From Roseateles puraquae (GTDB taxonomy: Bacteria; Pseudomonadota; Gammaproteobacteria; Burkholderiales; Burkholderiaceae_C), in the NCBI RefSeq assembly GCF_002205845.1, contig NZ_NISI01000010.1, forward strand, positions 124,001-188,000: 64,000 bases of DNA, in the 5' to 3' direction. The translations under genes and the position numbers were made by a program. This document shows, one piece after another, positions 53,664 to 62,562 of this stretch. Numbering within the stretch: the stretch's first letter is position 1; each line of letters starts with the position of its first letter. The notes beneath the pieces were generated by a model, which had not been told where the DNA came from, made no database searches, and saw nothing but the letters and a program-made list of their open reading frames with translations.

Positions 53664-55929
53664 CGGGGCGTTGCGACTGCGGGTCTCCATACAACACGCC
53701 CCGCCCATGCGTCCCCACATAGACCCGCCCAAACACCTTGGGGTCGCCGCTGACCTGCAGGATCAAGCCCCACTGGTGCGCGTCGTCGTTGATGCGCTGC
53801 CAGCTCCCGCCCGCGTCGGTCGAGCGGAAGAGGCCATAACGGCCTGACACCGTGCCCACGAGGTAGAGCGCCGGGTCTGCCGCGCCCGGCGCGGCGCGGC
53901 CAAAGCCGAAGGCGTGGATCTCGCTGACCCCGGGCAGGCGCTGGAAGCCGGCGCCACCTGCGGCCGTGCGGCGGTACAGGCCGTGGAAGGCGGCCACCCA
54001 GAGCTCGCCGTGGCGGCCGGGCGTGGCGTAGAGGCGGTCCTGGCCGCCGCGGTCGTCGCCGCGGTTGCTGCGGTTGTGGCTGCCGGCCTGCAGGTCGCGC
54101 ACCGGGCCATCGGGCAGGGTCAGGGGCTCGGCGGTGAAGTGCAGGCCGCCGTCGGTGCTGCTGAACAGCTGGCCGTCAAACAGCGCCATCGCGTGGAAGC
54201 GCTGCGGCTCGGCCGGGTCGGCAATCACACGGGTGCCGGCGGGCAGGCCGGTTACGGCCTGCCAGGTGTCGCCGCGGTCGTGGGTGACGTGGGGTGTGCC
54301 GCCCTTGGGTGTCCACACCCAGGCGCGGCCGTCGGCCGACACGGCGATGAAGCCGTCGCCGGGCAGCGGGCCCGGTGGCACCGTCGCGGGCTCGCGCCAG
54401 CTGGTGCCGCCGTCCAGCGAGTAGCCGAGGTTCTTGCCGCCGTCGCGCGCGTGGCCGATGCGCACGATCACCTCGGGCGCGAGCGCCGCGCCCGTCACGT
54501 CATGCGTGTTGCCGAAGAAGGGCGGCTTGGGGTTGCCGGCGGCAGGGTGGTCGAGGTCGGTGTGGACGAAACCGGAGTAGTCGCCGATGGCCGTCACGAG
54601 CGGCACGCCCTTCGTGGGGCTGTGCAGGGCCAGGGCCACGGTCTCTTCGATGCCGCCGGACATCACGCGCCAGTGCGTGGGTTGGCCGCGGTCGGCGGCA
54701 GTGAGGTCGAGCGTCTCCCAGCCGCCGTAGCCGGTGGTGAAGAGGGCGTGGTCGGGGTTGGCGGGGTTGATCTTGACGTCGTAGAGCCAGTGCAGATGCG
54801 TGTCGGCCACATAGGGCGCTGCCGAGGCGTCGAAGCGGGCGGTGGTGAAGAGCGCTGCCCAGGTGGCGCCGCCGTCGGTGCTGCGGAAGAGCTCGTCGCC
54901 CCGCGCGCGCCCGGCGGTGCTGGCCAGCAGCCGGCGGGGTTGCGTGGGGTCAACCACTACGGTGGCATAACCGAAGGGTTGGGCGGCACTGGGGCGCGCG
55001 GGGGTGATGTCGGTCCAGGTGCGGGTGGCCGGGTCCAGGCGCCAGACCGAGCCATCGGTCATGCGGTGCGGCCCGGGCTCGCTGGCGTAGGCGATGTAGA
55101 GCTGGCCATCGCTCGCGAGCGCCGCGCGCATCGGGCGGTGGCGCTCCGGGCCGCCGGGCAGGGGCTGCCAGCTGGCACCGGCATCCAGACTGCGCCACAG
55201 GCTCGGGCGGCCGATGACGGAGACGCCGGCGTAGATCGTGCGGCTGGGCTGGCCGCGCGTGCCGCTGCTCGGGTCGAACAGCAGGAAGTTGATCGTCGCC
55301 TTGCCGTCGCTGCCACCCCAACTGGGCGGCGGGCCGTCGCTCGCCTCGCGGCGCCAGGCCGCGTCGGGGAAGCTGTCCACGCGCTGGAAGGTTCGCGCCG
55401 CGTCGGTGCTGCGCCACAGGCCGGCGGTGCGGCTGGCGAGGTAGAGCACGCGGCCGTCGTTGGGGTCCACGGCCAGCCGTTCGCCGTTGCCCCGGCCGCC
55501 TTCGTTGCCGCCGAGCTTGAAGGGCAGGTCGGTGCGCTGCCAGCTGCGTCCGCGGTCGCGGGAGCGCAGCACGGCGCCGTTGGGCACCGTGGCGGCCGTG
55601 TAGGTGCCACAGGCCAGGTAGATGGCGTCGGGGTTGTTCGGGTCGACCGCGAGGCTCTCCACGCCCATCAGGTTGACGTCGGCCAGCGGCAGGTGGTCCA
55701 GCAGCGGCTGCCAGGGGCCGGTCGCGGTGTCTCGGCGGTAGGCGCCGCCCATGTCGGTGCGGGCATAGGCCAGGCCCGGCACCGTCGGGTGGAAGGCGAT
55801 GCCGTCGACAAAGCCGCCGCCGACGATGGCGACTGACTTGAAGGTGTAGGGCAGGTCGGTCGGCGGCGCAGCCAAGGCGCTCGCACCGGCCAGGGCGAGG
55901 GCGCCCAGCCAGGGGGTGATGCGGGTCAT
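53650..55929 (-). CDS. GH74-type xyloglucanase / BNR-repeat glycosidase
   Basis: 759 residues with a signal peptide (about 1-21, ending ALAAP). TFKSVAIVGGGFVDGIAFHP, YARTDMGGAYRRD, VESLAVDPNNPDAIYLACGTYT and GGNEGGRGNGERLAVDPN are GH74 blocks; Asp-box repeats (RSRDRGRSW, RSTDAARTF, RSTDGGATW, STDGGLHF, RSTDAGGSW) mark two seven-bladed beta-propellers. GH74 enzymes cut beta-1,4-glucan backbones of xyloglucan outside the cell. No other plant-polysaccharide gene is adjacent, although two TonB receptors are in the window. A perfect inverted repeat overlaps its promoter. Confidence 0.85.
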   Translation of the reverse strand: MTRITPWLGALALAGASALAAPPTDLPYTFKSVAIVGGGFVDGIAFHPTVPGLAYARTDMGGAYRRDTATGPWQPLLDHLPLADVNLMGVESLAVDPNNPDAIYLACGTYTAATVPNGAVLRSRDRGRSWQRTDLPFKLGGNEGGRGNGERLAVDPNDGRVLYLASRTAGLWRSTDAARTFQRVDSFPDAAWRREASDGPPPSWGGSDGKATINFLLFDPSSGTRGQPSRTIYAGVSVIGRPSLWRSLDAGASWQPLPGGPERHRPMRAALASDGQLYIAYASEPGPHRMTDGSVWRLDPATRTWTDITPARPSAAQPFGYATVVVDPTQPRRLLASTAGRARGDELFRSTDGGATWAALFTTARFDASAAPYVADTHLHWLYDVKINPANPDHALFTTGYGGWETLDLTAADRGQPTHWRVMSGGIEETVALALHSPTKGVPLVTAIGDYSGFVHTDLDHPAAGNPKPPFFGNTHDVTGAALAPEVIVRIGHARDGGKNLGYSLDGGTSWREPATVPPGPLPGDGFIAVSADGRAWVWTPKGGTPHVTHDRGDTWQAVTGLPAGTRVIADPAEPQRFHAMALFDGQLFSSTDGGLHFTAEPLTLPDGPVRDLQAGSHNRSNRGDDRGGQDRLYATPGRHGELWVAAFHGLYRRTAAGGAGFQRLPGVSEIHAFGFGRAAPGAADPALYLVGTVSGRYGLFRSTDAGGSWQRINDDAHQWGLILQVSGDPKVFGRVYVGTHGRGVLYGDPQSQRPVKVD

Positions 55930-55968
55930 GTCTCCGGATGTTCTTGTGGACAGCGCTGGACATCGTAG

Positions 55969-55989
55969 TTTGTTCAGCGGGCGAACAAA
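55969..55989 (-). promoter_or_regulatory. Perfect inverted repeat over the GH74 promoter
   Basis: TTTGTTC (55969-55975) and GAACAAA (55983-55989) are perfect arms with a 7-nt spacer. On the minus strand TTGTTC within it and TACGAT 15 nt further on could be the -35 and -10 boxes of the GH74 gene, whose start is 40 nt away. A repressor binding here would control that gene. Regulator unknown. Confidence 0.5.
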
Positions 55990-56038
55990 TAGAGTCTGAC
56001 CCGTGGTGGCGGGGGCTTCAGTAGACTCAAGGCTCGCA

Positions 56039-56048
56039 AAGGAGGTGA
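56039..56048 (+). promoter_or_regulatory. Perfect Shine-Dalgarno for the antitoxin
   Basis: AAGGAGGTGA lies 4 nt before the ATG at 56053 and is fully complementary to the 16S rRNA tail. Strong translation of an antitoxin relative to its overlapping toxin fits the need for antitoxin excess. Confidence 0.75.
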
Positions 56049-56052
56049 TGTC

Positions 56053-56283
56053 ATGTCAGACACTGCGGCTGATCTGGTCCGACGTGGCAAACAGCTGTCC
56101 GTCGAAGACCGGGAAATGCTGGTCGATGCGCTTCTTGAGTCGCTCAATGAGCCCGCCGCCGCCGAACTTGATGAGGCTTGGGCCGCCGAGATTGAGCGGC
56201 GCCTCGCGGCCTACGACCGCGGCGAAGCGACGGCACTGCCGGCAGCTGAGGTTTTTGCGCGCGCGAGATCGCTGGCTCGGTGA
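56053..56283 (+). CDS. Antitoxin, addiction-module family (TIGR02574 type)
   Basis: 76 residues. LVRRGKQLSVEDREMLVDALLESLNEP is, in parts, the conserved core of small addiction-module antitoxins; LDEAWAAEIERRLAAYDRGE and ALPAAEVFARARS form the C-terminal toxin-wrapping tail. It has an unusually strong ribosome site. The toxin start overlaps its stop by 4 nt. Confidence 0.88.
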   Translation: MSDTAADLVRRGKQLSVEDREMLVDALLESLNEPAAAELDEAWAAEIERRLAAYDRGEATALPAAEVFARARSLAR

Positions 56284-56573
56284 GAGACATCGAGTTCCTG
56301 CCCCAGGCGCAGGCGGAGTTGCTGCATGAGGTCAGCTACTACTCGTCCCTGAGGTCGGGTGCCGGCGTCAGGTTCCAGGCGGCTGTGGAATCGGCGCTGG
56401 ATCGCGTCGCGAGGCATCCCTTGGGTGGCGCGCCATCGCCCACCGGCACGCGAAGCGTCTTGGTCAAGGGCTTCCCTTTCAGCATCGTCTATCGCTTCAG
56501 TGAGCCGCAGGTGCTGGTGGTGGCCATCGCTCCGCACAAGCGACTGCCGGGTTATTGGCTGAGCCGGGTTTGA
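56280..56573 (+). CDS. Type II toxin, RelE/ParE superfamily (second pair)
   Basis: 97 residues from a GTG at 56280. IEFLPQAQAELLHEVSYYSSL starts the fold, SLRSGAGVRFQAAVESALDRVARHP is the helix, and FPFSIVYRFSEPQVLVVAIAPHKRLPGYW is, in parts, the final sheet. The YRF...VVAIAPHKRLPGYW ending is typical of the RelE/ParE partners of TIGR02574 antitoxins. Target, gyrase or ribosome, unknown. Confidence 0.88.
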   Translation: MRDIEFLPQAQAELLHEVSYYSSLRSGAGVRFQAAVESALDRVARHPLGGAPSPTGTRSVLVKGFPFSIVYRFSEPQVLVVAIAPHKRLPGYWLSRV

Positions 56574-56679
56574 TGCCAAGCACATCGCACGGCACCCGGC
56601 CATCGATGTCGATAGCGCTCCTGCTCGTTCGTCGACACGATGCAAGGCGCCCGATGGCGCCGCTACCTGGAGTGAAGAC

Positions 56680-57048
56680 ATGTCCTACATCGACGGTTTC
56701 GTGATCGCGGTTCCCACCGCCAACCGGCAGCAGTTCATCGACCATGCGCGCCATTTCGACGCGATGTTTCTGGAGCTCGGTGCTCTGCGCGTGGTCGAGG
56801 GCTGGGGCGACGACGTGCCCGACGGCAAGCTCACTGACTTCCGCCGCGCCGTGCAGGCCACGGCCGACGAGACGGTGGCGTTCTCCTGGGTCGAGTGGCC
56901 CGACAAGGCCACGCGCGACGCGGCCATGAAGAAGATGCGAGAAGACCCCCGCATGGACCCCGCCACGCCGGGTAATCCGCCGATTCCGTTCGACGGCAAG
57001 CGGATGATCTTCGGCGGCTTCGAGACGGTCGTTGACGTGAAACCCTGA
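56680..57048 (+). CDS. DUF1428 domain protein
   Basis: 122 residues. SYIDGFVIAVPTANRQQFID and ALRVVEGWGDDVPDGKLTDF followed by FSWVEWPDKATRDAAMKKM and PFDGKRMIFGGFE match DUF1428, a ferredoxin-like alpha/beta family related to dimeric monooxygenase folds. Function unknown. It starts 106 nt after the toxin on the same strand, but is probably independent of it. Confidence 0.92.
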   Translation: MSYIDGFVIAVPTANRQQFIDHARHFDAMFLELGALRVVEGWGDDVPDGKLTDFRRAVQATADETVAFSWVEWPDKATRDAAMKKMREDPRMDPATPGNPPIPFDGKRMIFGGFETVVDVKP

Positions 57049-57081
57049 GGCGGGACGATCGGCGGGCCCCGCGGGCCGGCG

Positions 57082-57552
57082 TCAGCGGCGCAGCGTGGCG
57101 ATCAGCCCGTCACACGCAGCCTCCACCAGGTCCAGCACTTCCTCGAACCCGGCGTCACCGCCGTAGTACGGGTCGGGCACATGGCGCTTGCCGGTCTGCG
57201 GCGCGTAGTCCAGCAGCAGTTTCAGCCGATGGCGCGCGCCCGGCGGGCAAAGCTTCGCGGCGCGGCTGAGGTTGTCGGCGTCCATGCCCAGCACGAGGTC
57301 GAAGCGCGTGAAGTCGTCCGCCACCAGCTGGCGGGCGCGCTGGGCGCTGAGGTCGTAGCCACGGCGCAGCGCATGGGCCTGGCTGCGCTCGTCGGGCGGT
57401 TCGCCCACGTGGTAGGCGTGGGTGCCGGCAGAGTCCACCTCGACCTGACTCGCCAGCCCGGCGGCGGCCAGCTTGGCGCGCATGACGCCTTCGGCCGTGG
57501 GGCTGCGGCAGATGTTGCCCATGCAGAAGAACAGGATGCGGCGGTAGGTCAT
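57082..57552 (-). CDS. Low-molecular-weight protein-tyrosine phosphatase
   Basis: 156 residues. The P-loop is Cys10-x5-Arg16-Ser (CMGNICRS) and the general acid is Asp127 in PDPYY. Full family length. It removes phosphate from tyrosine in the cytoplasm; bacterial relatives act on exopolysaccharide kinases or host proteins. No tyrosine kinase is nearby. It lies upstream, on the minus strand, of nothing in the same unit; a repeat element separates it from the TonB receptor. Confidence 0.95.
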   Translation of the reverse strand: MTYRRILFFCMGNICRSPTAEGVMRAKLAAAGLASQVEVDSAGTHAYHVGEPPDERSQAHALRRGYDLSAQRARQLVADDFTRFDLVLGMDADNLSRAAKLCPPGARHRLKLLLDYAPQTGKRHVPDPYYGGDAGFEEVLDLVEAACDGLIATLRR

Positions 57553-57578
57553 GACAACGGTCTTCGGAGTTCACGGGT

Positions 57579-57692
57579 CGAGCGCCGGGCCGCTCCCAAG
57601 CCGGCCCGTCCTGGCGATGTGCGCGCCAGTCGATCTGGCGTGCATCGCCGTCCCCTCGGGGGACCGCTCAGCGTACCCGCTGGGCGAGGGGC
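57579..57692 (-). repeat. Four-hairpin intergenic repeat, copy 1
   Basis: Fills the space after the TonB receptor stop. H1: CGGGCCG (57586-57592) / CGGCCCG (57602-57608), loop CTCCCAAGC. H2: arms 57613-57629 and 57635-57649, loop TCGAT. H3: GTCCCC-TCG-GGGGAC (57650-57664). H4: CAGCG-TACC-CGCTG (57669-57682). The same element with H1 and H3 unchanged but H2 and H4 altered, still pairing, is at 60100-60231. Either strand could be the functional one; its position fits a 3'-UTR element of the minus-strand gene. Confidence 0.8.
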
Positions 57693-57695
57693 TTG

Positions 57696-59996
57696 TCAGA
57701 ACCTCAGGTCGGCACGCAGCGACACCACGCGGAAGGTCTTGTTGCGTGACCAGCTGTCGGTCACGAGGGTGTGGCCCGTCACGGGGTCGAGCGTGACCGC
57801 CTCGGAGGTGACCTGTGCGTCGCGCGGCACGAGGTTGGCGAAGGACAGCCGCCAGTTGATGCCGTCGCGCACCGAGCCGCTGCTCCACGACAGGTAGGCA
57901 TCGAACTGGCGGCGGGCGGTCTCGTCGCGGCGCAGGTTTTCGGTCTGCTGCACGCGCGTCGGCGGCACGTAGTTGACGTTGAAGCCACTGCCGAAGTTCT
58001 GGCCCAGGGCCTTCCAGCGGTGGTCCAGGCCAAAGTTCAGGCTGCCGCGGGGTTGCTGGTCCAGCCGGGCGTTTGGGCCCGGGATGCCCTTGACCTGGCT
58101 GTCGAACACCGCGATGTTGAAGCGCAGCAGCAGCGACTGCCACTCGGGTGGGGCGTCTTCCCAGACTTCGTCGAGCCGCGCCTTCACCTCGAATTCCACG
58201 CCCATGGTGCGGGCGCCTTGCATGTTGCGCGGGCGGCTGACCCAGCGCGGCGAGCTGTCCCAGGGCACGGTCTCGAGTTCGAGCTGGCTGCGGATCAGGC
58301 TCTTGATGTCGCGCACGAAGGCGCTGCCCGAGACGATGCCGCCGGTGGGCAGCCAGTGCTCCAGGCTCAGGTCCACGCCGGTGGCGAGTTCGGGCTTGAG
58401 GTCGGGGTTGCCGGCGCGGTCGGCGTAGGTGGGCAGGTTGGGGCCGCTGGGGTAGGTGGTGTTGATGGTGGGCCGCGCGATCAGGTCGTTCAGGTTGGGT
58501 GAGCGGTAGCTGCGGGTGAGGCTCAGGCGCACCTGGTCTTTCGGGAAGGCCTCGGGCTTCCAGAGCAGATGAAAAAGCGGCGAGGTGACCTGGGAGATGT
58601 TGCGTGTGTCGGGCATCAGGCCGCTGCCGTCGGCCCGGGTCTCGATGCGTTCGTAGCGGATGCCGGCGTACACCGACCACTGCTTGCTCGGGCTCCACTC
58701 GTCCTGGGTGTAGGCGGCCAAGCGCTGGCTGCGCGAGCCCAGGGTGTCGCCAAACTTCTGCAGCGCGAGCGACTCGACGCCGTCCACCAGCGTGCGGCGC
58801 ACCTGGGTGCGGCGGCTCTGCTCGCCTTCGGTACCGGTCACCCACTGGTGCTCCTTGGCCGTCTTGAGGCTCCACTTGGCGGCCAGGCTGGTCTGGTCTT
58901 CGTCGGTGACGTTGTGATCGTCCTGCACCCGCTGCAGGTCGACGCCGATGTCCTTGAGCGTCTCGCGCCGCTGGCTGTTGCTGGTGTTCTTGAAGCCGCC
59001 ATGGCCCAGGCGCAGCTCCCAGCTCTCACCGGGCTCGGGGCGCCAGTTGGCCGAGACGTTCAGCCGCAGGTTGTGCATGCGCCCGTCAGAGTTGCCCTGG
59101 ACGTCGCGGAATCGGGTGAAGCCGGTGGCATTGTTCTGGCTGCTGCCCTCGCTTTGGGACAGCGCGAAGAAGGGCGAGAGGTTGATGCTCAGCGTCTCGC
59201 TGGCCTTCCAACGCAGGCGTGCGTTGCCGTTCAAGCTGGCGCTGCGGCCCTCGCTGGTGCCCAGCTGCACGGTCTCGTTGAGCACCTGCGCCGTGTCGGT
59301 GTCGACCACGCGGTTGCGCGAGTCGATGTTGTTGAAGCGCCGGTGCAGGCCGCCGTTGGTGGAGAAGGCGCCAACGAAGGCATCGCCGTTCGGCCCGCCC
59401 CATTTGAGGTTGCGCGTCCAGCTGAAGTCGGCCTGCGGCTCGCCGCGGTCCTGGCCGAGTGTGAGGCGCAGCTCGTGGTTGGCCTTGACCAGCGGCTCGC
59501 GCAGGATGATGTTGATGGTGCCGGCAATCGCCCGCGCACCGGTCTCGGCCGTGGGGGCGCGGTAGATCTCGATGCGCTCGATCTGGTCGGGCGGCAGCTC
59601 CTCCACCGCAAAGCCGGCGGGCGCGCGCTCGCCGTCGACCAGGATCTGCGTGAACCCGCCGCCCAGGCCGCGCATGCGGATGTCGCCACCGCGGCCGGGG
59701 CGGCCGCCGATCGTGACGCCCGGCAGGCGGCGCAGCACGTCGCCCAGCACGGTGTCGCCATAACGATCGAGGTCTTCACGCTCGATGACGATCTTGCTGG
59801 CGGTGCTGTTGCGCCGCCGGCTGTTGGCGGTCGGGCCACTGCTGACCTCGACGCGGTCCAGCCGGTTGCCCACCACGCCGCTGGCCGCCGCAGCGGGGGC
59901 GCTGGCGGCGGCGGCAGGCTTGGTGGGCGTGGGCAGCTGGGCCGCACTGAGCGCGCAGGCGCAGAGCGCACCCAGCGCAAGGAGGAGGCGGCGCAT
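57696..59996 (-). CDS. TonB-dependent receptor
   Basis: 766 residues from the ATG at 59996. Signal peptide about 1-19 (ending ALSAAQ), then an Ala/Pro-rich stretch. The plug has IVIEREDLDRYGDTVLGDVL, RLPGVTIGGRPGRGGDIRMRG (in parts), GGFTQILVDGERAPAGFA and ERIEIYRAPTAETGARAIAGTINIIL. The barrel follows and ends VVSLRADLRF with terminal Phe. Substrate unknown; it is the more oligosaccharide/peptide-like of TonB receptors only by weak resemblance. The four-hairpin repeat starts 3 nt after the stop. Confidence 0.93.
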   Translation of the reverse strand: MRRLLLALGALCACALSAAQLPTPTKPAAAASAPAAAASGVVGNRLDRVEVSSGPTANSRRRNSTASKIVIEREDLDRYGDTVLGDVLRRLPGVTIGGRPGRGGDIRMRGLGGGFTQILVDGERAPAGFAVEELPPDQIERIEIYRAPTAETGARAIAGTINIILREPLVKANHELRLTLGQDRGEPQADFSWTRNLKWGGPNGDAFVGAFSTNGGLHRRFNNIDSRNRVVDTDTAQVLNETVQLGTSEGRSASLNGNARLRWKASETLSINLSPFFALSQSEGSSQNNATGFTRFRDVQGNSDGRMHNLRLNVSANWRPEPGESWELRLGHGGFKNTSNSQRRETLKDIGVDLQRVQDDHNVTDEDQTSLAAKWSLKTAKEHQWVTGTEGEQSRRTQVRRTLVDGVESLALQKFGDTLGSRSQRLAAYTQDEWSPSKQWSVYAGIRYERIETRADGSGLMPDTRNISQVTSPLFHLLWKPEAFPKDQVRLSLTRSYRSPNLNDLIARPTINTTYPSGPNLPTYADRAGNPDLKPELATGVDLSLEHWLPTGGIVSGSAFVRDIKSLIRSQLELETVPWDSSPRWVSRPRNMQGARTMGVEFEVKARLDEVWEDAPPEWQSLLLRFNIAVFDSQVKGIPGPNARLDQQPRGSLNFGLDHRWKALGQNFGSGFNVNYVPPTRVQQTENLRRDETARRQFDAYLSWSSGSVRDGINWRLSFANLVPRDAQVTSEAVTLDPVTGHTLVTDSWSRNKTFRVVSLRADLRF

Positions 59997-60099
59997 GGCC
60001 GCGCATTCTTGCGGAGGGTGCTGACGCCAGCTCACGTAAAGCGCTCATTTACATGAGCGGCAATGCGTATGGAGTTGTGGGGTTGGACCAAGTGCGGGC

Positions 60100-60231
60100 C
60101 GAGCGCCGGGCCGCTCCCAAGCCGGCCCGCCATGGCGATGTGCTTGCGGCTTGATGCCGCAAGCATCGCCGTCCCCTCGGGGGACCGACCAGGCTCGCGC
60201 GCGTTCAGCGAAGCGAGTCTGGGCGAGGGGC
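60100..60231 (-). repeat. Four-hairpin intergenic repeat, copy 2
   Basis: Same order as copy 1. H1: 60107-60113 / 60123-60129, sequence identical to copy 1. H2: GGCGATGTGCTTGCGGC (60134-60150) against GCCGCAAGCATCGCC (60156-60170), loop TTGAT; here TTGCGGC/GCCGCAA replace the inner pairs CGCCAG/CTGGCG of copy 1. H3: 60171-60185, identical. H4: AGGCTCGC (60191-60198) against GCGAGTCT (60213-60220), different in sequence and loop from copy 1. It starts 3 nt after the OmpW stop. Confidence 0.8.
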
Positions 60232-60234
60232 ACT

Positions 60235-60849
60235 TCAGAACCGCCAGCCGAGGCCGACGCTGACCAGCGTGGGGTTGACCTTGAACTTGCCGACTTCCGT
60301 GCCCTTGGAGTAGACCGTGGTGTCCAGGCCGACCTTCTTCACGTCGAAGTTCAGGTAGGTGCCCTTGGCGATCTCCACGTCCGCGCCGATCTGGAAGGCG
60401 GCGCCCCAGCTGTTGCGCTTGATGCTGGGCTGCAGCGCGGTCTGCACGGCGGGCGCGAAGTTCACGCTGGAGAAGTTGGTGTAGTTCAGGCCGGCGCCGA
60501 CATAGGGGCGCACGGTGCCGGTGGGGTTGAAGTGGTACTGCAGCGTCAGTGTCGGCGGCAGGTGCTTCAGGCTGCCGATCTCGGCGCCGTTGGAGTAGAG
60601 CGTGTGCTTTTGCGGGTAGGTCAGGATCAGCTCGGCCGCGATGTTGGGCGTCACGAAGTAGCTGAAGTCGACCTCGGGGAAGGTCTTGTTGTTGACCGAC
60701 AGGCCCAGGCCCGTGCTGTCCTTGTTGGCCGAGTCCAGGTGCAGGGCGCGCACGCGCACCAGCCACGGGCCTTCATCGGCGAAGGCAGGTTGCAGGGCGA
60801 GGGCGGCGGCAGCAACGGCGGCCAGGCGCAGGGCGGTAGCGAACTTCAT
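60235..60849 (-). CDS. ompW: OmpW family outer-membrane protein
   Basis: 204 residues from the ATG at 60849 (AGGAG about 9 nt upstream). Signal peptide 1-24 (ending QPAFAD). EGPWLVRVRALHLDSANKDS, VDFSYFVTPNIAAELILTYPQKH, TLQYHFNPTGTVRPYVGAGLNYT and the ending VSVGLGWRF with terminal Phe are OmpW hallmarks for an eight-stranded barrel. It may pass small hydrophobic molecules. A loosely FNR-like sequence upstream is too poor to claim. The four-hairpin repeat follows directly. Confidence 0.93.
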   Translation of the reverse strand: MKFATALRLAAVAAAALALQPAFADEGPWLVRVRALHLDSANKDSTGLGLSVNNKTFPEVDFSYFVTPNIAAELILTYPQKHTLYSNGAEIGSLKHLPPTLTLQYHFNPTGTVRPYVGAGLNYTNFSSVNFAPAVQTALQPSIKRNSWGAAFQIGADVEIAKGTYLNFDVKKVGLDTTVYSKGTEVGKFKVNPTLVSVGLGWRF

Positions 60850-60924
60850 GGTCAATGACTCCTGGTGAATGGGACGTGTCCCGATGGAGCCATTGCAATC
60901 CGGCAGGCGCTTGCCGACTTTGAG

Positions 60925-60978
60925 GCAACACAAAGTCACCCCGAGGCCGCCCGGCGTCAGCGGGCGGTCTTGTGTTGC
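60925..60978 (-). terminator. Long two-part hairpin at the end of metF
   Basis: Outer stem GCAACACAA (60925-60933) / TTGTGTTGC (60970-60978) is perfect; inner stem GCCGCCCG (60946-60953) / CGGGCGGT (60961-60968) has one G-T pair. It begins just 2 nt past the metF stop on the minus strand. It probably stops metF transcription before ompW, and could also fold in the opposite direction. Confidence 0.6.
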
Positions 60979-60979
60979 A

Positions 60980-61819
60980 TCAAACTTTGGCGCCGAGGCC
61001 GAGGCGTTTGCACAACTCCAGCACCAACGGGGCCTGGTTGAGCGTGTAGAAGTGGATGCCCGGCGCGCCGCCGTCGATCAGGCGCTCGCACAGCCGCGCG
61101 ATGACGTCCAGGCCAAAGGCGCGGATGCTGGCCGCGTCGTCCATGAAGCCTTCCATCTTGAGTTGCACCCAGCGCGGGATGTCGATGCCGTCGCGCTGCG
61201 CGAACTGCGCGATGCGCGCGTAGTTGTGGAAGGGCATGATGCCCGGCACGATGGGCTGGGTGACGCCCAGCTTGCGGGCCTCCTCCACGAAGTGGAAGTA
61301 GGCATCGGCATTGAAGAAGAACTGCGTGATGGCGCCGTCGGCGCCGGCCTTCATCTTGTCGGCGAAGTGCTGCAGGTCCTTGGCGGCATAACGCTGCTGC
61401 GGGTGCACCTCGGGGTAGGCGGCCACCTCGATGTGCCAGTCGGCGCCCTGGGTTTCGCGGATGAAGCTGACGAGCTCAGCCGCGTAGCGGAACTCGCCGG
61501 CCGTGGCGGTGCCGCTGGGCAGGTCGCCGCGCAGGGCCACCACGCGGTGGATGTTCTGGGCGCGGTAGGTGCCCAGGATGTCGGCAATGTTCTCGCGGGT
61601 GGAACCCACGCAGGACAGGTGCGGCGCGGCCTCGAAGCCGGCAGCGGCGATGTCCATCACGGCCGACAGCGTCTTGTCGCGCGTGGAGCCGCCTGCACCG
61701 TAGGTGACGCTGAAGTACTGCGGCGACAGTTCGCCGAGCTGCTGCACGACGGCCTTGAGCTTCTCGACGCCCACGGGCGTGTTCGGCGGGAAGAACTCGA
61801 ACGAAACAGGTGTGCTCAT
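60980..61819 (-). CDS. metF: Methylenetetrahydrofolate reductase
   Basis: 279 residues. VSFEFFPPNTPVGVEKL is the MetF start. YGAGGSTRDKTLSAVMDIAA, HLSCVGSTRENIADIL, VALRGDLPSG (FAD/folate), ITQFFFNADAYFHFVEEARKLG and GIMPFHNYARIAQFA complete the TIM-barrel motifs. It reduces 5,10-methylene-THF to 5-methyl-THF, supplying methyl groups for methionine. The start overlaps the tlyA stop by 4 nt; ahcY is the first gene of the unit. The folate input links it to the two cyclo-ligases upstream in the window. Confidence 0.96.
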   Translation of the reverse strand: MSTPVSFEFFPPNTPVGVEKLKAVVQQLGELSPQYFSVTYGAGGSTRDKTLSAVMDIAAAGFEAAPHLSCVGSTRENIADILGTYRAQNIHRVVALRGDLPSGTATAGEFRYAAELVSFIRETQGADWHIEVAAYPEVHPQQRYAAKDLQHFADKMKAGADGAITQFFFNADAYFHFVEEARKLGVTQPIVPGIMPFHNYARIAQFAQRDGIDIPRWVQLKMEGFMDDAASIRAFGLDVIARLCERLIDGGAPGIHFYTLNQAPLVLELCKRLGLGAKV

Positions 61820-62562
61820 CGTGAGGCGTACAAAAAGAATTCGCGGTTGCCATCACCGCCGGTGATGGGGCTGTCGAAGTAGTCCAGCACCTTCAGGCCG
61901 AGCGCCGTGCAGGCCAGGCGGGTGCGGGCTTCCAGGCGCGGGTAGTCGGCCTCGTCCTTGACCAGGCCCCGCTTGTCCAGCGCCTGCGGACCGAGCTCGA
62001 ACTGCGGCTTGATCAGCACCAGCAAGTGGCCATGGGCCTCCAGCCAGGGCAGCAGCTCCGGCAGGCTGCCGATCATCGAGATGAAGCTGAGGTCGCCCAC
62101 GATGAGTGGGAAGCCGCCGGTGGGGGCATGCGGGCGCAGGCTGTCGAGCTCGCGCACATGCGTGCCTTCCAGCGCCGTGACGCGCGCGTTGCGCTTCAGC
62201 TGCGCGTGCAGCTGGCCATGCCCGACATCAATGCCCACCACATGGCGCGCGCCGCGCGCCAGCAGGCAGTCGGTGAAGCCCCCGGTGCTCTGGCCCACGT
62301 CCAGCACGATGAGGTCGTGCACATCGGCCTCGGTGCGAGCCAGCGCACCCTCCAGCTTGAGCCCGCCGCGGGACACATAGCGCAGCTCCGCGTCGTCGGT
62401 GACGCGCAGCTGCGCCGTCTCGGGCAGGTCTTCGCCGGCCTTCTTCAGCGCGGCCCAGCCGGTGGGCGAGGCCCACTCGGCCACGCCGTGCTGGATGAGC
62501 CGTTGCGCGGCCGACCGCGTGGGCGCCAAGCCCTGGGCGACGAGGAGCTGGTCGGCGCGCAT
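61816..62562 (-). CDS. tlyA: TlyA family RNA 2'-O-methyltransferase
   Basis: 248 residues. An S4 RNA-binding domain (1-60, MRADQLLVAQGLAPTRSAAQ) precedes a Rossmann methyltransferase (about 75-240) with LDVGQSTGGFTDCLLARGA (SAM loop), YVSRGGLKLEGAL and LIKPQFELGPQAL. Relatives methylate ribosomal RNA (16S C1409, 23S C1920), and the K-D-K-E set is present in part. Its SAH product is the substrate of the AhcY encoded 7 nt upstream, which may explain the unusual position between ahcY and metF. Confidence 0.92.
   Translation of the reverse strand: MRADQLLVAQGLAPTRSAAQRLIQHGVAEWASPTGWAALKKAGEDLPETAQLRVTDDAELRYVSRGGLKLEGALARTEADVHDLIVLDVGQSTGGFTDCLLARGARHVVGIDVGHGQLHAQLKRNARVTALEGTHVRELDSLRPHAPTGGFPLIVGDLSFISMIGSLPELLPWLEAHGHLLVLIKPQFELGPQALDKRGLVKDEADYPRLEARTRLACTALGLKVLDYFDSPITGGDGNREFFLYASR

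Follow-up and report, generated by a model that had tools for sequence, protein, structure and literature searches.

A probable dispersed mobile palindromic repeat at stop/start gene junctions of Roseateles puraquae and related Burkholderiales

The window analysed here, a stretch of 64,000 nucleotides of the Roseateles puraquae genome (contig NZ_NISI01000010.1), contains two copies of a structured repeat just past the stop codons of a TonB-dependent receptor (ORF 57696-60035) and of OmpW (ORF 60235-60939). An initial annotation, made from the letters alone, had singled out this pair, and the two copies are real: they form a 98-nt direct repeat of 84% identity (57574-57671 and 60095-60192), and each whole element starts 4 nt past its stop codon. 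Read from the stop codon outwards, the element consists of the end word CCCCTCG, hairpin 4, hairpin 3, hairpin 2, whose stem has a bulge of 2 nt, and hairpin 1. The boundaries of the whole elements were set by eye, and the scores are those of a covariance model of the three core hairpins (R1, described below). The features are as follows:

57574..57691, minus strand: copy 1, four-hairpin element of 118 nt with a short hairpin 4 (R1 101.6 bits)
57574..57608, minus strand: hairpin 1 of copy 1, holding the conserved core GGCTTGGGAGCGGCCCGGCG
57613..57649, minus strand: hairpin 2 of copy 1, with a 2-nt bulge on the 3' side and a compensated inner stem
57650..57664, minus strand: hairpin 3 of copy 1, GTCCCC-CGA-GGGGAC
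57668..57684, minus strand: hairpin 4 of copy 1, short form CCAGCG/CGCTGA
57692..57698, minus strand: stop codon TGA of the TonB receptor and the 4-nt spacer ahead of copy 1
60095..60230, minus strand: copy 2, four-hairpin element of 136 nt with a long hairpin 4 (R1 112.3 bits)
60095..60129, minus strand: hairpin 1 of copy 2
60134..60170, minus strand: hairpin 2 of copy 2
60171..60185, minus strand: hairpin 3 of copy 2
60188..60230, minus strand: 5' end (CCCCTCG) and long hairpin 4 of copy 2
60231..60237, minus strand: stop codon TGA of OmpW and the 4-nt spacer ahead of copy 2

Both copies are single, not tandem, and on either strand they fold better than dinucleotide shuffles, with z scores of -2.5 to -4.6 as RNA and -3.4 to -5.9 as DNA. 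That the upstream genes encode outer-membrane proteins holds for the window and is a coincidence, as the genes upstream of copies elsewhere are varied; 17 others, assigned through Pfam, include relatives of rpe, lpxA, flgI, tatB, an Fe/Mn superoxide dismutase and ctaA. On the plus strand at 56053-56573 lie two small adjacent frames that may form a toxin-antitoxin pair, resembling the ParD/ParE or RelE type.

A motif search of the whole genome and of its relatives, including a covariance model as the initial annotation had proposed, uncovered a dispersed family. BLAST against the own genome returned 46 matching pieces, 33 of them below 1e-5. The R1 model, built from 24 own copies, found 31 matches there (29 at E<=1e-3), and among 399 family genomes (own included) 73, from 35 of 141 genera, contain a match at E<=1e-3, with 10 candidates scored per genome and E-values that are rough. 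The best match reaches E<=1e-6 in 32 of the 73; the rest score lower, and other forms or chance hits may be among them. Deeper scoring of 11 other genomes, with 150 candidates each, gave 19 to 145 matches per genome, the upper figure lying near that ceiling. Among the matches listed, the hairpin 1 core (GGCTTGGGnGCGGCCCGGCG) occurs largely in Pelomonas, Roseateles, Paucibacter, Rhizobacter, Methylibium, Piscinibacter, Aquabacterium, Leptothrix, Sphaerotilus, Rubrivivax, Ideonella and unnamed Burkholderiales bins, and also in one Variovorax. Rfam covariance models gave a single sub-threshold match in window positions 55000-62000, outside the element, and three sub-threshold matches in 14 related loci. 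A plasmid search with the four-hairpin form and phage and plasmid searches with a three-hairpin form yielded no match, and a related-lineage form is present on 10 plasmid records. Two viral metagenome contigs (L207, L208) hold the hairpin 1 core, and the R1 match in L208 (109 bits) spans all three core hairpins. Three-hairpin or related copies at L173, L149, L098, L126 and L106 and on contig 48 of genome G566 stand in tandem arrays, one unit every 82-90 nt; in the first five of these the few bases preceding each unit are repeated along the array.

The stems of the family covary. In an alignment of 24 own copies (A2, drawn from 30 own BLAST loci and omitting the partial or rearranged L023, L025, L026, L028, L029 and L030), 93.7% of pair cells are standard and 50 are double-changed, against 17 in shuffles. 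Across 99 distinct copies from other genomes, 97.1% of pair cells are standard and 200 are double-changed (shuffles give 57, slid controls 10-29), although these copies (alignments A3 and A4) were found using R1, which biases the pair counts towards its structure. The claim that a structure is under selection, for which further copies lacking compensatory changes would have been damaging, is thereby strengthened. G-U pairs are rare (46 of 6721 pair cells; in nine tRNAs predicted by ARAGORN, a small and biased sample, the figure is 22 of 194). Copies of other genera and families retain the hairpin 1 core within a stem of unrelated sequence: in the first five outer pairs 94 of 100 cells are Watson-Crick, four are A-C, two are other mismatches and none is G-U, each position showing three or four pair types, as counted in the 20 of 30 rows with GCC after the core, several of which come from one genome. 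Of 399 genomes of the order, 14 from five families show this pattern of a core in a free stem, and the reversed pattern gave no match.

Compensatory change had been proposed for two stems of the window copies. For hairpin 2 it is genuine, with compensated changes in 12 of 15 pairs across the 99 copies. Hairpin 4 exists as two length subtypes, with about 25 nt (104 of 196 copies) or about 43 nt (92 of 196) from the CCCC end to the core, and the two window copies carry different forms, so that their contrast in this stem is a difference of subtype. The modules (hairpins 4, 3, 2 and 1) differ by lineage around the conserved hairpin 1 core. An attenuator-like switch, in which the 5' CCCCTCG would pair with CGAGGGG of hairpin 3, was considered and rejected, since the T of CCCCTCG is retained in 183 of 196 copies while all four bases occur at the loop position opposite it. 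At two loci, L375 in the closest relative (G410) and L053 in the own genome, a GC-rich sequence GCAGACCGCGC...CTTCGGCAGGC...CCGGCCTCAG lies at the boundary of hairpins 4 and 3, as if a small repeat had been inserted inside another.

The copies are far from randomly placed with respect to genes; random placement would have told against the initial annotation. For position and hairpin 4 counts we used the 196 of 212 distinct copies that have a recognisable 5' end, with gene starts taken from a purpose-made codon-usage gene finder checked by eye on the window. The flanking genes are oriented ++ at 135 copies, -- at 14, +- at 38 and -+ at three; six copies lack a neighbour. Of 193 copies, 164 have a stop codon on the same strand at a position that ranges from 14 nt ahead of the element start to 4 nt inside it. 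At the other end, a stop word is found 0-2 nt ahead of the downstream start in 42 of 121 cases compared with 14 of 116 control starts (p 5.5e-5; gaps of 8-90 nt for the element and 15-300 nt for the control), an excess that fits a stop/start junction word duplicated at insertion. Exact target duplication was not detected overall, the longest common flank words matching those of shuffles; 10-nt shared words number three against 0.6 expected, two of them within tandem arrays. The right flank is A-rich in 115 copies. Neither inverted repeats at the ends (CCCCTCG and CTCGGCCCG) nor a general target duplication were seen, which sets the element apart from a classical MITE.

A form with three hairpins, lacking hairpin 2, occurs mainly in other genera, and its orientation is reversed: of 56 copies, among them tandem ones and three with a different type of hairpin (L116, L124, L204), and with the short matches L159, L168 and L066 left out, 38 lie in -- and five in ++ contexts (p 5e-23 against the four-hairpin form). 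In 28 of the 56 an opposite-strand start codon lies no more than 14 nt from the CCCC end, and in 23 the distance is exactly 5 nt, a spacing at which the CGAGGGG of this form could act as a Shine-Dalgarno sequence. Both figures may be inflated by a gene finder bonus for GAGG-like words that favours starts beside CGAGGGG. In nine a same-strand stop codon falls within the 14 nt.

Comparison of equivalent junctions in related genomes reveals filled and empty states. Among 18 phosphatase loci, 10 have a TonB receptor directly upstream, as judged by eye; the element occupies three of these junctions, one of them that of the window, and seven are empty, with gaps of 3 to about 20 nt. The element is present between lpxA and lpxB in three of 20 genomes, with 16 having 3-6 nt in its place and one a different hairpin repeat, and between flgI and flgJ in three of 20, the stop and start touching or overlapping in the other 17. 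The different repeat in the lpxA-lpxB gap, at L304 in genome G412, has the sequence CCCCCTACCGGCTACGCCGGCCCCCTCAAGGGGGC, and suggests that such gaps are hot spots for repeats. At all three junctions, whose states were partly read by eye where the gene finder had misplaced a start (L274, L288, L293, L294), the element occurs in a minority of related genomes and both flanking reading frames are intact. Filled and empty states vary between species within one genus. By parsimony the filled states are gains of the element as a unit, loss being formally possible. The early suggestion of a mobile palindromic element in the spirit of REP/BIME is thus supported by the many copies, the filled and empty sites and the strong covariation.

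Copies that have stayed in place behave differently from the family as a whole. We compared 12 orthologous pairs between the own genome and G410, out of 14 with both flanks matched; L053 and L057, with the 5' part replaced and too diverged, were dropped, and L042, matched on one side, was excluded. Of 38 pair differences, counted without polarity and in columns forced to model length, which makes a single-base deletion in L384 register more than once, 36 are not compensatory: at least one copy has a non-Watson-Crick pair, namely G-U in 11, A-C in 10 and other mismatches in 15. Both compensatory differences belong to the copy at lpxAB, which, to judge by its flank, may have been converted or inserted separately. 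Set against these counts, the family-wide 200 double changes versus 107 other departures give a Fisher p of 3e-13 (computed with 108). Since pair differences between orthologous copies are mostly non-compensatory, pairing appears to be maintained in spreading lineages and not visibly in situ. Differences are slightly less frequent at paired positions (38 of 703) than at unpaired positions (23 of 314) in a count that omits L034/L373, so that a weak constraint in place is possible.

Which strand folds can be approached through mismatches, A-C on one strand being G-U on the complementary one. In the 6721 cells A-C mismatches number 99, more than twice the G-U count; by pairs, A-C is above G-U in 17 and below in seven (p 0.064). 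The base of hairpin 4 in the 196 copies is T.C in 88, C.T in 75, Watson-Crick in 25, C.C in five, T.T in two and A.C in one; T.C and C.T, which both occur in both hairpin 4 forms, are G.A and A.G on the other strand. The A-C excess and this pattern suggest that the folded strand is the complement of the upstream gene's mRNA, and both whole window copies fold better on that strand. Against antisense folding, only 70 of 212 copies have a core with the better RNA energy on that strand, and the orthologous copies show no asymmetry (G-U 11, A-C 10). Folding of the strand complementary to the upstream mRNA, probably as DNA, is therefore weakly supported.

The element has no gene of its own and is too short for a transposase. 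A search for a mover that covered Y1 transposases was negative: no copy lies at any of the 21 Y1 loci from 11 genomes, with flanks of at most about 1.5 kb. The one Y1 (RAYT-like) gene found in the own genome (L031, C12:1373220-1373546) is bordered by AATGGGGTCAGA-type words and is perhaps a separate REP-like system.

On the basis of these data, the copies probably represent a non-autonomous, dispersed mobile palindromic repeat of Pelomonas/Roseateles and related Burkholderiales that is selected for spreading and enters stop/start junctions, a REP/ERIC/BOX-like element being the best reading of its kind. In the mechanism we propose, a geneless element of three or four hairpins would enter a stop/start junction beside the stop codon, in a preferred orientation, and the junction word would be duplicated on insertion. 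A trans-acting enzyme may recognise the folded single strand together with the hairpin 1 core; base pairing would consequently be selected in copies still spreading, and a settled copy would drift, mostly without function for the neighbouring genes. More speculatively, and in our opinion doubtfully, one may envisage a Burkholderiales superfamily united by the core in a stem of free sequence and entering stop/start junctions harmlessly, the four-hairpin form after the stop and the three-hairpin form reversed with its own Shine-Dalgarno (CGAGGGG, 5 nt before ATG), moved by an enzyme by way of a folded single strand whose polarity is fixed.

The main competing explanation is a cis-acting RNA element in the 3'-UTR of the upstream gene, that is, a terminator, an RNase barrier or a stabiliser selected at its locus. 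The sense position just past stop codons and the stable hairpins suit such an element, and REPs of Escherichia coli protect mRNA ends. Copies, however, also lie within lpxA-lpxB and flgI-flgJ, operon sites at which a terminator should be costly; no intrinsic terminator (a GC stem followed by a T run) is predicted in 57450-60350; presence is patchy among species of one genus; and nearly all orthologous pair differences leave the pairing uncompensated. We therefore regard this explanation as unlikely, and neither the terminator nor the 3'-UTR or mRNA-stability role that the initial annotation had offered is supported as a selected function.

Covariation could also arise, with no selection for folding, from quasipalindrome correction, in which repair templated by one arm keeps the arms complementary and makes each double change a single event. 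The arbitrary sequence of the arms and the near absence of G-U are as expected from such a process. Uncorrected mismatches nevertheless persist in orthologous copies with a divergence of about 2-14% in the coding flanks, and differences that are double and standard on both sides are limited to two of 38, at one locus that was perhaps converted or is a separate copy. Correction also leaves the conserved loops and the hairpin 1 core unexplained, and it seems to us quite improbable. A classical REP/RAYT system (REPtron), with a Y1 transposase acting on single-stranded DNA, would account for the high copy number, for extragenic palindromes with a bulged hairpin 2 and possibly for single-strand specificity, but the words that border the own genome's Y1 gene are different, the 21 Y1 loci are devoid of the element within the flanks given above, and the units exceed REPs in size, which makes this origin very improbable. 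The dispersed repeat selected for spreading thus remains the preferred reading, and its wider meaning is that covariation in bacterial repeats is easily taken as a sign of RNA function. Strong covariation between copies combined with drift at the same locus separates selection for spreading from local function, and the test could be used on REP, ERIC, BOX and BRE. The element further shows that DNA can occupy the stop/start overlaps of operons with both genes unbroken, and its conserved core is a handle for finding the missing enzyme. Its newest aspects are the targeting of junctions with opposite polarity of the two forms and the split between selection in spreading and drift in place.

Several known systems invite comparison. 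REPs have a bulged stem and are smaller than the present units, which measure about 80-136 nt and have three or four hairpins. ERIC/IRU and BOX have long stems, BOX being modular, and their mover is unknown or absent; we know of no sequence match between either and the element. REP/BIME with RAYT (PMC2817692) resemble it as extragenic palindromes in large number, and ERIC/IRU and BOX (PMC2759123, PMC3049150) as small mobile intergenic repeats. With REP/BIME it also shares spread in trans, as we infer it, and differs from them as a multi-hairpin unit at gene junctions, in a preferred orientation and with no Y1 link in flanks of at most about 1.5 kb. A literature search, with subscription journals mostly outside its reach, returned no published description of the window form, and the initial statement that none was known is nearly right, no paper having been found that prints the sequence; a probable relative, BRE, has been published.

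BRE (Hot et al. 2011, PMC3110155) is described, in the section devoted to it, as a GC-rich beta-proteobacterial repeat of ~90 bp, usually intergenic and patchy between species, with tandem copies separated by no or few nucleotides, signs of mobility, and hosts in Bordetella, Polaromonas, Delftia, Acidovorax, Rhodoferax, Verminephrobacter and Azoarcus. Units of ~82-90 nt, tandem arrays and overlapping host genera are likewise seen in the three-hairpin and related-lineage copies; tandem intergenic units of ~90 bp are seen in some of these copies, whereas those of the window are single and of 118 and 136 nt. That section of the paper (PMC3110155) makes no mention of secondary structure, stop/start insertion or a four-hairpin form, nor of Pelomonas, Roseateles, Leptothrix, Rhizobacter or Methylibium. 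Compared by description, the paper's text printing no sequence, BRE is probably the nearest published relative. The related-lineage copy L476 is the one that matches the 10 plasmid records, which include Acidovorax temperans (97.5%), Rhodoferax antarcticus and Azoarcus sp. KH32C, all of genera also listed for BRE; the Azoarcus copy lies between two transketolase genes, just past the end of the first. We think that these copies and BRE, the latter compared by description, form one superfamily, and if the BRE at 3605317-3605401 of B. pertussis shared the GGCTTGGG-type core, BRE would belong to it.
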